From Candidatus Pseudoscillospira falkowii (GTDB lineage Bacteria > Bacillota > Clostridia > Oscillospirales > Oscillospiraceae), in assembly GCA_904374485.1 (NCBI GenBank), contig CAJFFX010000003.1:1-64000 (forward strand): 64,000 bases of DNA, written 5' to 3'. Both the position numbers and the translations under genes were made by a program. Under the pieces are notes generated by a model. It did not search any database and was not told the DNA's origin. It saw nothing but the letters and a program-made list of their open reading frames with translations. Shown here piece by piece: positions 38,167 through 44,796 of the stretch (position 1 is the stretch's first letter; every line of letters starts with the position of its first letter).

Positions 38167-41109
38167 TCAGGGCGTCAGGGCGGTCCAGACCTCCGCGCCG
38201 CCGCGCTTGTCCCAGGTATGGCCGTTGGCCGCTTCCATGATCGTTTCCCAGGCCCAGTGGCGGCTGGTCAAATCGGTGAACGCCGTCAGGTCCTCCGCAT
38301 GGGCAGCCAGGAATGCCGTGTCGGCGCGGCGGCCCAGCATCCGGTTGACGATAGCGGTCACCTCGGCCCGGGTGATGCTGCTGCCGGGCCGGAAGGTCCC
38401 GTCGCCGTAGCCCTCGATCCAGCCGTACTGCACGGCCCCCGCCACGTCGGCATAGAACCAGTCGCTTTCATGTACGTCGGTGAAGCACGTTTCTCCGCCT
38501 GCGGGCGCTTTGGCAAACCGCATGGCGATGGCGGTGAACTCCGCCCGGGTGATGGCCCGCTCCGGCTCATAGCGGCCGTCGCCCACGCCGTTGAGGATGC
38601 CCAGGGAGGCCAGTGTATGCACAGCCTCGGCATACCACGCACCATCGTCCACATCCGCAAAGGTGACGGTGGTCGTCACATCCTTGTCCAGCAGCAGATT
38701 GTAGAACATCTGCGCCGCCTCGGCGCGGGTCATGTTCCGGTCGGGGCCGAATGCGCCATCGGGATAACCTGCCAGATAGGCCATATGATCGATGGTATTC
38801 AGCCAACCGGATACGCCGGTATCATCCGGGTCGGCAACCGTTTCGGTCTCCGCAAAGACCGCCTCGATGGTGTGGCGGGTGCGGACATTCTCAAAGGTGT
38901 AGGAACTGACGGCCCCCACGCTCTCCCCGTCCACCAGCACGTCGGCGATCTCATAGCCCTCGCCGGGGGTGATGGTGAAGGTCTTGTCGCCGCCGCGCAC
39001 CACTTGTACGCTGCCGCTGGGACTGATGGCGCCGCCCTCGCCGGCGCTGGCGGTAATGGTGTAGCGGGTGACGCCGCCGCTGCCGCCGGACTGGACGGTG
39101 AAGGTCAGGGGCACGGTGGCCGTGACAGTGTTGGTACCACCGATTCCGGTGACTGTCAGCGTCGCGTCATAGTTTCCCGCCGCAAGGCCGGCGTTGGGCT
39201 GAACGGTGAAGGTGGCGGTGGCATTGGGGGCCAGAGTGATAGAACCTTCAGTCCAGCCGTCGCCCGTCGCCACGATGTCGTAATTCGTCAGGGTGGGCAG
39301 CGTGATGGTGACGCTCTGGTTGCCCGTGTTGGTGATGGTCACAGTCTGGGCCGCAGGCTGGGTGTAACCGGTCTGGACGGAACCGAAGTCCAGTTCTGCC
39401 GGATCGGCTTTGATGGTGTATACCGGGGCTTCTTTCACAGTAACATGGAATACATAGCTGTTTAAAACTGTCGCCTCTGGATCATTGTCAGAACCAATGT
39501 CAATAAAATTATAAGGAGATTTATAAAAAAGTTCTGGATCCGCTCCATTTTTGACAATGTAACCATAGATTTCCACCATATACTGATTGGAGCCGTTCCG
39601 CTCATCTTCTTTTCCCTCTATGGGGATTTCCGACACGCTTGTCTGAACCCGGTTGAGCATGCCGCTTCCCTCGCTGGAGGAAAACAACTCCGGTTCTTCC
39701 TCACTGCGCGGGCCATTCGTACTCTGTTCATATTCATCCCACCAGCAGTATCGGAAATAAACATATTCACCTTCCTCGCTGCCCTGTTCCTCCAGTAACA
39801 GCGGATGGGACACTTTGACTCCTGCGCTGTGGGCTTGGTCATCTAATTGCACGGTCAGGCTGCTGTTTTCCTGTGCTTTACCGTCTACCGAATAGTCCAC
39901 CGTGGGATTTTGCAGCGCGTAAGATACAGTAGCTTTTGGCGTGGTCAGTTTGGTCTCAATTTTCCCCGTATCGGTCAACGGTATGCTGCCAAGCATCCAG
40001 CTCACATCATAACCGGGTCTTTCCGCCGGTGTATTCTCCAGGGTGGGAAGAATATAGGCAGCGTCTTTTTCCCAAAACTCTGTCCCTTCGATTCGGGTAT
40101 ATTGAATCGACTGGTAATTCAGTTTCTCCTGCTCGATGTCCGTATCTCCAAATTGGATAGTCAACGGGTATGTCATGGCGTTGCGGATGGCGCTGGTGCC
40201 CGGCTGCACGTTTAGCCTATAATCCCAATAACTGGTGTTGTCGCGAAAAATAATCAACAGATTGCTGTTCCCTGTCTTGAATGCACTATCGCCGTACCCC
40301 GTAAAATTGGAATCCCAGCCATCTCCCTGTCGCTTTACGACGATCTGGGAGATACGGCTGCTATAAAAAGCCTCGCTGCCAATGGTCTCTACCGAGGCGG
40401 GAATCACGACCCGCGCGTCTACACCATCGGCAAAACAATTTCGAAATGTCTGTCTGCCGATACAGGTTAAGGATGCAGGAAGTTCAAAAACAGTGCCGTC
40501 ATCACTGCTGCTCAGGCGGATATATTGTAGGCCGCTGCAACCGTTGAACGCTGAACCGGAATCTTGATTTCCAAGGCTTTTCAGCGTGTCCGGCAGGATA
40601 ACGCCGGTCAGACCGCTGCAGCCGCTGAAGGCACTTTTTTCTATTGTCTCTACTTTGGTTTTGGACAAATCCAGTATGCCGGAGAGATAAGTGCAGCTCA
40701 TTGCCGCCTGACTTTGGATGGTAGTTAGGCTGGCAGCTTTGGAAAAATCAATCTTGACCATCTTGTATTTTTCTGTGTATTTTTTGTCGCCGCTATAATT
40801 GTAATTGGTAATTACCTGATTCTTTTGTTTGTCGTTGCTCCAGGCATCTCTAAAACCATCCTTGGCAATGATGGTGACGCTCTCAGGAACAGTAATGGAA
40901 AAATACATAAGTTTTTTCTCGGGGTTTATGCGCTCATACCATTCCTTTGAAATTCCGTAGTAAGTTCCATTTGTGATGACCAGTCCCTCCACCGGCACTT
41001 CCATAGGATTATCTGCTGTAAGGCCATCACCCGCTGCCGCTGCTGCCGTCGGCAGTAATCCAAGCGCCAAGACCAGCGACAGAAAGAGCGCGATAAGCCG
41101 TTTTTTCAT
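38167..41109 (-). CDS. Large surface protein: BspA-like leucine-rich repeats, Ig-like and InlB-type beta repeats, three C-terminal SLH domains
   Basis: Signal [30 protein letters not shown] segments ([21 protein letters not shown]); [46 protein letters not shown] repeats [29 protein letters not shown]. Confidence 0.85.
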
Positions 41110-41152: not shown

Positions 41153-42412
41153 TCAAATACGGCTGGCGCCGCTGTCCGCCGGGCTCCCCGCCGCGGCAAG
41201 GGCCCGCGCATCGCGCGCCCGCCGTTTTCTGCCGGTCCGCCCGGCGCACACCGGGCAGCCGCTCTTCTGGCTGCCGGTGCGGGAATAGACGGCAGCTTTC
41301 CACACATGCCCCTCGGCGCACTGCCACCAAACCTTCTTGCGGCTCCCGGCGGTGACCATCTCCGGCGTCAGGTTTCCGTTGAGGGTCGGGTGCCATTGGG
41401 CGGCAACAGCGGGTTCCACCGCGGCCAGATCGTTGAACCCCGGCAGGGCCCGCCGCCCAGCGCAGTAGGGACAGCCGCTGCTATGCTCCGTCCGCGCCGC
41501 CACCACCGCCTGATAGAGGTGGCCTTTCTCACAGGTCCACCATACTTTCCGGTTACTGTAGGGCGACACGGTTTCCGGCGTCAAGCTGCCGTTCTTTTCA
41601 GCGTGCCACTCCCTGGCGATGTCCGGATAGAGCGTTTTCAAATCGTTCTCGCCGGGCAGCACGGTTTTTCCCGCGCACACCGGACAGCCCGCGCCGTTGG
41701 CCGTCCGGGAAAAGACCGCCGCCTGCCATTCATGCCCTTTTTCACAGCGCCACCAGACTTTCCGGTGGCTTCCCGCCGTCACATCCCGGGGCGTCAGGGA
41801 GCCGTTTCGGACGGGATGCCACTGCTTTGCCAAATCGGGGCAGGTGGTCGCCAAATCGTTTTCTTCCCGCACGACGGCGCGGTTGGCGCACACCGGACAG
41901 CCGCAGCCGGCCGTTCTGGCGTTTACCCGGGCCATCCACTCGTGCCCTTTTTCGCACTGCCACCAAACCACCCTGTGACTGCCGGGCACAACATCTCCCG
42001 GCGTAAGGGGCAGATTTTTTGTGGGGTGCCATTCCTTTGCCAGGTCCGGAAACAGCGTCCCCAAATCGGTTTCCCCAGGGGCTGCCTTCTTCCCGACACA
42101 GTAAGGGCAGCGACTCCGCGACGAGGCGCGGGTATGGATATCGCACTGCCACTCGTGCCCCTTTTCACACCGCCACCACACCCGCCGGCTGCTGCCCCGG
42201 CTCACCGTGTCCGGCGTCAGGGGCAGGTTTTTCGTGGGATGCCACTGGCGGAGCAGCTCCTCGCAGTTTGTGCGCAGGCAATACGCACGCAATGACTCTC
42301 TGATATCCTCACCCCCCCGGTTTAAGACAGAATCAACCTTCTGTCCCGGTTTACAGCGAAACGCCGGGTGCGCTCCTGCATCGAATCGCGAAAAGGCGGC
42401 GATAGATCCCAT
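41153..42412 (-). CDS. Protein of five tandem zinc-ribbon repeats (PF14311-like); annotated 5' end lies inside an invertible segment, so the true start is uncertain
   Basis: About 70-aa repeats of WHPTKN..LTP..V..GS.R.VWW.CEKGHEW......R....CP.C.G....PGENDL..L.PD.A.; start could be downstream of the IR (for example TTG before [16 protein letters not shown]). Confidence 0.8.
42326..42348 (+). repeat. Left 23-bp inverted repeat of putative invertible element
   Basis: GACAGAATCAACCTTCTGTCCCG; exact reverse complement at 42604-42626; internal dyad GACAGAA-TCAACC-TTCTGTC. Confidence 0.95.
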
Positions 42413-42441
42413 AAAATATAAAAAGCCGCTCAGAGAGCGGC
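42411..42441 (-). terminator. Intrinsic terminator inside invertible segment, facing the zinc-ribbon gene
   Basis: Minus strand GCCGCTC-TCT-GAGCGGC followed by TTTTTATATTTTAT. Confidence 0.75.
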
Positions 42442-42531
42442 ATAAGGTTCAGCGATTTAAGCGTGACAAGACAGGCCGGCAAACAGTAAATTTGACGGCC
42501 CGGATTTTTGCACCCCGCTGGGCGAAAATAC

Positions 42532-42560
42532 TTGCTTTTCCGCAAAGGCGCTGGTAAAAT
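42532..42560 (+). promoter_or_regulatory. Sigma-A-like promoter inside invertible segment
   Basis: TTGCTT(42532)-N17-TAAAAT(42555), pointing right, away from the zinc-ribbon gene in this orientation. Confidence 0.65.
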
Positions 42561-42603
42561 ATTAAATTACAAATCATTATGTAGCAAAATGGCAGACGCC
42601 ATG

Positions 42604-42626
42604 CGGGACAGAAGGTTGATTCTGTC
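42604..42626 (-). repeat. Right 23-bp inverted repeat of putative invertible element
   Basis: CGGGACAGAAGGTTGATTCTGTC, exact reverse complement of 42326-42348; 13 bp from the recombinase stop. Confidence 0.95.
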
Positions 42627-42639
42627 CTGTTTTTCTTTC

Positions 42640-43665: not shown

Positions 43666-44796
43666 ATGAAACTCGGAATCGTGGGTCTGCCCAACGTGGG
43701 CAAGAGCACGCTGTTCAACGCCATCACCAACACCAAACACGCCCAGGCCGCCAACTATCCCTTCTGCACCATCGAGCCCAACACGGGCATCGTCCCCGTG
43801 CCGGACAAGCGGCTGGACAAGCTGTGTGAGATCTGGGAGCCGGACAAGAAAACCAACGCCGTCATCGAATTCGTGGACATTGCCGGCCTGGTGCGCGGCG
43901 CGTCCAAGGGCGCGGGCCTGGGCAACAAGTTCCTGGGCCACATCCGCGAGTGCGACGCCATCGTCCATGTGGTGCGCTGCTTTGACGACGACAACATTGT
44001 CCACGTGGTGGACGACGTCAATGTCCCCGTGGGCGTGGACCCTGAGGGCGACATCGACGCCATCGATATGGAACTGATCCTCTCCGACCTGGAGATGGTG
44101 CAGAACCGCATCGCCCGCCAGACCAAGGCCGCTAAGACCGGCAACAAGGACGCCAAGGCGGAGCTCGCCTGGCTGGAGCCCCTGGCCGCCTGGCTGGGCG
44201 AGGGCAAGAGCGCCCGCACCTTCGCCTTCGACGAGGAGGACGAAGCCCAGACCCTGGCCCGCCGGGAAATGGGCCTGCTCTCCGCCAAGCCCATCATCTA
44301 CGCCTGCAATATGGGCGAGGACGATTTGATGAACGGCATCGAAAACAACAAATACTTCCCCTTGGTCAAGGCCCGGGCCGAAGCCGAGGGTGCCGGCGCC
44401 ATCCCCATCTGCGCCAAGACCGAGGAGGACATCGCCGAGTATTCCCCCGAGGAAAAGGCCGCGTTCCTGGCGGAAATGGGCATCGAGGCCAGCGGCCTGG
44501 ACAACCTGATCGCCGCCAGCTATTCCCTGCTGGGCCTGATCTCCTTCCTGACCGACGGCAAGAAGGAATGCCGCGCCTGGACCATCAAGCGCGGCACCAA
44601 GGCCCCCCAGGCCGCCGGCAAGATCCACTCCGATTTCGAGCGCGGCTTCATCCGCGCCGAGGTGTGCAATTTCGACACACTGATGGAGTGCGGCGGCAAG
44701 ATGAGCGAAGTCAAGGCCCGGGGCCTGTACCGCTCGGAAGGCAAGGAGTATGTGGTGCAGGACGGCGACATCATCGAGTTTTTGTTCAATGTATAA
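43666..44796 (+). CDS. ychF: Redox-regulated ATPase YchF
   Basis: MKLGIVGLPNVGKSTLFNAITN; NYPFCTIEPNTGIVPVPD; C-terminal TGS-like region ending VQDGDIIEFLFNV. Confidence 0.96.
   Translation: MKLGIVGLPNVGKSTLFNAITNTKHAQAANYPFCTIEPNTGIVPVPDKRLDKLCEIWEPDKKTNAVIEFVDIAGLVRGASKGAGLGNKFLGHIRECDAIVHVVRCFDDDNIVHVVDDVNVPVGVDPEGDIDAIDMELILSDLEMVQNRIARQTKAAKTGNKDAKAELAWLEPLAAWLGEGKSARTFAFDEEDEAQTLARREMGLLSAKPIIYACNMGEDDLMNGIENNKYFPLVKARAEAEGAGAIPICAKTEEDIAEYSPEEKAAFLAEMGIEASGLDNLIAASYSLLGLISFLTDGKKECRAWTIKRGTKAPQAAGKIHSDFERGFIRAEVCNFDTLMECGGKMSEVKARGLYRSEGKEYVVQDGDIIEFLFNV

Follow-up and report, generated by a model that had tools for sequence, protein, structure and literature searches.

Organization of the locus

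The window analysed here, i.e. the whole stretch of 64,000 nucleotides, comes from a metagenome-assembled genome of Candidatus Pseudoscillospira falkowii (1.89 Mb in 99 contigs), a member of the Oscillospiraceae that probably lives in the gut. It contains a gene for a tyrosine recombinase, followed to its left by a 301-bp element bounded by inverted repeats and by genes for a zinc-ribbon protein and a secreted surface protein (Table 1). Promoters and terminators were called by consensus matching and folding, and are to be read as predicted elements.

Table 1. Features of the putative switch and of its neighbouring genes in the window.
Feature	Position	Strand	Basis or remark
Secreted surface protein, BspA-type leucine-rich repeats and three SLH domains	38167..41109	-	Domain search
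Zinc-ribbon protein, five DUF4379 repeats (PF14311)	41153..42292	-	Predicted first gene controlled in the ON state; start codon uncertain
Gene-proximal recombination site	42326..42348	+	Core GACAGAA-TCAACC-TTCTGTC at 42326-42345; family site alignment
Interior, predicted to invert	42349..42603	.	255 bp; total span of 301 bp, within one helical-turn length class
Extra left-facing hairpin, intrinsic-terminator-like	42411..42441	-	Terminator prediction and folding
Hairpin upstream of the -35 box	42461..42515	.	Found across the family; folding
Predicted promoter TTGCTT-N17-TAAAAT	42532..42560	+	Consensus; with the segment measured between the 20-bp cores, its -35 box starts 75 bp from the exit end
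TATGTA motif 3' of the -10 box	42578..42583	+	Family enrichment
Recombinase-proximal recombination site, inverted copy	42604..42626	-	Repeat search and family site alignment
Tyrosine recombinase, 281 aa	42640..43485	-	PF00589 and PF02899
Candidate recombinase promoter, outside the segment	43618..43645	-	Consensus match only

The perfect 23-bp inverted repeat of the original prediction was found again at the same coordinates, and both arms contain the core sequence, which forms an internal 7-6-7 dyad. Exact inverted repeats of at least 16 bp, at a spacing of 60–600 bp, were absent from five block-shuffled windows, and all the inverted-repeat words of at least 18 bp found at this spacing in the real window are parts of this same repeat. 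A search of the 1.89-Mb genome allowing three mismatches did not yield the core site anywhere else. Together with a run of T residues that reaches position 42638, the right repeat folds as a right-facing, terminator-like hairpin (-17.2 kcal/mol, z -5.3); this run is absent at the left repeat and seems to be particular to the window locus.

As originally noted, the recombinase gene ends 13 bp from the right repeat, and we identified in its product the two domains shown in Table 1. Residues R140, K164, H227, R230, H253 and Y262 are all present, and are invariant across 12 aligned relatives; we take these to be the catalytic residues typical of tyrosine recombinases, and the window enzyme is predicted to be catalytically complete. 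The nearest solved structures are those of Xer recombinases (4a8e, 1a0p and 5hxy). Nevertheless, all the Xer models from NCBIfam scored below their curated cut-offs (the best one reached 139.5 of the 220 bits required), and the designation of the window enzyme as an equivalog of XerC, XerD or XerA was rejected for this reason.

Consensus matching likewise supports a right-facing promoter inside the segment, at a position that is conserved in the family (see below). Its score is moderate (10.8, with the top match on the opposite strand reaching 9.0, a difference of about 1.9), and orientation calls in segments with weak promoters, including the window copy, lean partly on the conserved 75-bp geometry. 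The extra left-facing hairpin comprises a stem at 42441-42425 followed by TTTTTATATT, folds at -12.9 kcal/mol and sits, in the present orientation, between the recombinase and the operon.

The recombinase belongs to a large family with paired sites

Relatives of the recombinase were searched in GTDB species genomes, comparing one genome per species, and 80 of them were drawn from a single scan. At E <= 1e-60, we found relatives in 81 of the 301 genomes from the family of the window genome, several of which contain four to eight copies, as well as in 9 of the 399 genomes of a phylum sample. More than 110 relatives, mostly from gut Oscillospirales, show a common layout. The search of viral contigs retrieved no relative and gave no sign of phage carriage there. 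In the window, a gene for a YchF-type GTPase (43666-44796) diverges from the recombinase gene; none of the eight relative loci that we checked had a ychF match, which suggests that the module occupies different chromosomal places.

In 138 of 160 loci, the recombinase gene is followed directly by an inverted pair of 20-bp dyad sites, which have the consensus GACARAA-N6-TTYTGTC and often overlap the recombinase stop codon. Conservation of the repeat and its dyad in relatives with the same recombinase was a test set beforehand for the original prediction, and both are kept in well over 100 loci. In an initial set of 80 distinct loci, the two sites of a locus agreed at 99–100% per position over their six central bases, and the sites of different loci at 29–73%, a pattern that was reproduced in the enlarged set of loci; the outer bases match less within a locus, down to 65% at the first position. 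Identity within each locus and variation between loci are what would be expected if the central hexamer is the strand-exchange region, where both partners must match. Five loci (L079, L051, L038, L020 and L068) contain a third site, which is a direct repeat of one of the other two at a distance of 33–82 bp; this may be a route to alternative inversions or deletions, or an effect of the assembly.

Segment lengths follow the helical repeat of DNA

Segment spans are not distributed continuously, but cluster at 249–252, 259–265, 269–274, 281–285, 291–296 and 300–309 bp, with empty gaps in between, and the 301 bp of the window copy fit these classes. Of the periods between 6 and 20 bp that were scanned, 10.4 bp described the spans best, with a resultant of 0.64 (n = 118). 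Similar values were obtained with representatives showing less than 70% recombinase identity (10.5 bp, resultant 0.63, n = 72) and after removing the two main clusters (10.3 bp, resultant 0.51, n = 51), and none of 2000 jittered span sets attained the observed resultants. Spans of nearest relatives differ by 0–3, 8–13, 19–23 bp or more, and never by 4–7 or 14–18 bp, so that shared ancestry is mostly set aside as a concern. The quantization of the spans at 10.4–10.5 bp thus suggests that the sites need helical phasing; the simplest reading would be that a short, stiff DNA loop requires the two sites to be turned in the same direction. We found no report on the helical spacing of invertible segments in the open-licence literature.

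The strong folding of the right repeat with its T-run could also indicate that the repeat is mainly a pair of terminators, and that the promoter is fortuitous. We give this idea hardly any credence, because the left repeat lacks the T-run, because a terminator needs neither hexamer identity within a locus nor variation between loci, and because the helical phasing of the two copies would be left unexplained.

A predicted promoter occupies a fixed position inside the segment

The segments were scanned with a sigma-70-type promoter model (TTGnnn-17-TGnTAnnAT). Of 26 gene-facing segments, 18 had the start of the -35 box 72–77 bp from the exit end, as did 36 of 54 recombinase-facing segments, compared with 3% in shuffled sequences. 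In the enlarged set, confident calls included 32 promoters oriented forward, toward the downstream gene, and 65 in reverse, away from it; when aligned, promoters of both orientation classes share the -35 box, an extended -10 box and an upstream hairpin. The 90 nt located 5' of the -35 box fold better than their shuffles in single-sequence folding (mean z -2.9, versus -0.4 for a control stretch). RNAalifold did not produce a consensus structure from a MAFFT alignment of this hairpin region, in which the stems are apparently misaligned. The hairpin could possibly act as a terminator or insulator. The motif TATGTA appears 60 times in the family segments, versus 5.8 in shuffles, and is often located 10–20 nt 3' of the -10 box. 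Distances from the promoter to the site peak near 65, 75 and 86 bp.

Since the promoter and the hairpin upstream of its -35 box are the parts conserved in the family, we regard the left-facing hairpin at 42411-42441 as a local refinement. It is terminator-like both by prediction and by folding, as originally proposed.

These results also bear on a different arrangement, in which control would be exerted by a promoter outside the segment, namely that of the recombinase itself, and inversion would insert or remove a terminator in a read-through transcript. In its favour, recombinase and operon are on the same strand and are at present separated by a left-facing terminator, and the promoter of cwpV in Clostridioides difficile is outside the inversion region (PMC2784873). 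The feature conserved among relatives is, however, a promoter at a fixed place inside the segment, and the hairpin upstream of the -35 box is present in either orientation; consequently, we consider this arrangement unlikely.

Both orientations occur among relatives

Orientation hardly follows phylogeny: the recombinase tree contains 25 changes of orientation, versus 27.0 +/- 1.8 with shuffled labels, indicating that orientation has almost no phylogenetic memory over the divergence sampled. Inverted blastn pairs between segments were discarded as evidence of inversion, because some of them stem from the palindromic central hairpin, and orientation was judged instead from promoter position and alignment of the full interior. 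By these means, inversion was recognized within a single genome (G270), where two near-identical modules, L195 and L197, share both the recombinase end and the downstream flank, but one of the 150-bp interiors has to be inverted for the two to align at 96% identity. Likewise, the promoter of a close relative, L011, is opposite to that of the window copy, and both segments match only if one is inverted (z 7.8 versus 0.1, over a short match). The locus of a genus relative (L006, in genome G001) aligns in the same orientation as the window copy and shares an identical interior with L031.

The distribution of contig ends is also uneven. Contigs end within 350 bp downstream of the recombinase in 11 of 75 cases and upstream of it in 1 of 62 (Fisher P = 0.012), and five contigs stop 21–26 bp beyond the recombinase, where the first site has its inner edge. 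In an isolate assembly (G239), contigs C28, C57 and C34 meet exactly at both sites: C28 and C34 end within 1–3 bp of the two sites, and the segment forms a 669-bp contig of its own, which overlaps both. The same contigs and places are found in G307, the genome of Evtepia gabavorous KLE1738 that contains L089. The breaks in G239 are most naturally explained by a mixture of orientations in the culture that was sequenced, although contig breaks can have other causes.

The finding of inverted segments in related genomes was the second test set in advance, and the L195/L197 pair, the promoters in both orientations and the contigs broken at the sites in G239 show that both orientations exist in the family. 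The locus could still be a relic, or a pair of integration or resolution sites, whose segment no longer inverts in this lineage; the single orientation in the contig of the window genome and the identical orientation in the genus relative agree with this. Nonetheless, the sites are inverted and not direct, the window copy keeps the perfect 23-bp repeat together with all the catalytic residues, and L011 has the opposite orientation, making this alternative very improbable.

Genes behind the probable switch

The original prediction proposed the zinc-ribbon gene as the target of the switch. It is indeed the first gene, but probably not the only one: the surface-protein gene begins 43 bp past its stop codon, with no terminator-like site reported in between, and the likely payload is a two-gene unit for the zinc-ribbon protein and the SLH/leucine-rich-repeat surface protein, which would be co-transcribed. 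The zinc-ribbon reading frame can be extended to an ATG at 42412, a start that would fall within the segment and exists in the present orientation only; its first in-frame start outside of the segment is a TTG at 42292. At the position of the ATG start of its relatives, the window copy shows an ATC (42302-42304), four codons before this TTG. Judging from these codons, the gene may use a rare start, may start at the TTG, or may be weakened.

Among relatives, the first gene behind the switch encodes a DUF4379 protein in 23 of 116 loci and a recombinase-like protein in another 23, and in many loci the switch is followed directly by a large secreted protein. The recombinase-like proteins (for example, L013:7118-7927, L030:7128-7979, L041:1755-2627 and those from about 20 further loci) are 25–34% identical to the active enzyme. 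They lack the first Arg, the His of the HxxR motif, the second His and the Tyr, and contain NPRCL in place of PHNLRH, with other positions strongly conserved. This conserved, catalytically dead paralogue is possibly a regulator of switching; in the window, its position behind the switch is filled by the DUF4379 zinc-ribbon protein.

A model for the window locus

The conserved sites, the promoter geometry of the family and the inversions seen in relatives support the original reading of the locus as an invertible promoter switch. We consider it highly probable, from sequence comparison, that the 301-bp element is a phase-variation switch in which the recombinase flips a promoter for the operon of zinc-ribbon and surface-protein genes. 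In this organism, the recombinase would bind the two inverted sites and synapse them in a short DNA loop, and exchange of strands within the 6-bp centre TCAACC would invert the 255-bp interior. The present orientation is predicted to be OFF, in agreement with the original call, as the promoter faces the recombinase, away from the operon, which is preceded by the left-facing terminator. In this state, the terminator would block read-through from the recombinase gene toward the operon, and the transcript of the invertible promoter would end at the recombinase-proximal site, whose strong terminator-like hairpin, formed with the T-run, probably keeps antisense transcription out of the recombinase gene. 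In the ON state, the inverted promoter would face left, its transcript would cross the other site, devoid of a T-run, and the zinc-ribbon and surface-protein genes would be expressed.

For the family as a whole, we lean towards a large group of self-contained inversion cassettes whose length is selected for whole helical turns, such that rotational alignment in a loop of about 270 bp would be part of the mechanism, and in which the dead recombinase, encoded first behind the switch in a fifth of the family, could feed back on switching in the ON state.

Such loci would provide a mechanistic anatomy for the phase-variable switches of surface proteins, a widespread class in gut Clostridia that has received less study than its counterpart in Bacteroidota. 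Helical quantization amounts to a simple prediction on DNA looping in natural site-specific inversion, and both the dead paralogue and the DUF4379 protein are candidate regulators encoded by genes under the control of the switch. Additionally, the central-hexamer rule and the fixed promoter geometry allow calling switches, and their ON or OFF state, from assemblies.

Comparison with known systems

Invertible promoters with an adjacent recombinase are already known as a kind, exemplified by fimS from Escherichia coli, and the window locus is an added member. fimS, an invertible promoter comparable in size to the window element (314 bp; PMC9993118), is also inverted by adjacent tyrosine recombinases, FimB and FimE, and also controls a surface structure. 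It differs in its use of two active recombinases plus host factors, where the window locus has a single active recombinase, and in that some relatives of the window locus carry a catalytically dead recombinase behind the switch.

The cwpV/RecV system of C. difficile resembles our locus in its 21-bp inverted repeats, 195-bp interior, recombinase-catalysed inversion and cell-wall protein payload (PMC2784873). However, recV is encoded elsewhere and the cwpV promoter lies outside the segment; the window locus was not assigned to this class because of its adjacent recombinase, only 13 bp away, and its promoter-like site inside the segment at a conserved position, although a further promoter outside the segment may exist. 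As for XerC/XerD and the archaeal XerA, the window recombinase is of the Xer type and its site also has a 6-bp centre, but the sites are inverted pairs and not dif.

Among published sets, the nearest is inverton group 139 with invertase group 35 (PMC11892184, Microbiome 2025). It comprises 33 invertons, 32 of them from Clostridia, and sequencing reads were used to track shifts of orientation in Clostridium sp. D5 and Intestinimonas butyriciproducens; the likeness is one of description, apart from any comparison of repeat motifs. Its members are mostly from Clostridia and have short segments (255–257 bp for the two quoted) and an adjacent tyrosine-type recombinase, and the name I. butyriciproducens is also borne by L011 from the present family. 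The window locus shares two features with the group, namely its occurrence in Clostridia and a tyrosine-type recombinase within 5 kb. The difference is that the passages of that report dealing with the group mention neither helical phasing nor a dead recombinase paralogue. These two traits, of which we found no description in the open-licence literature, look new.
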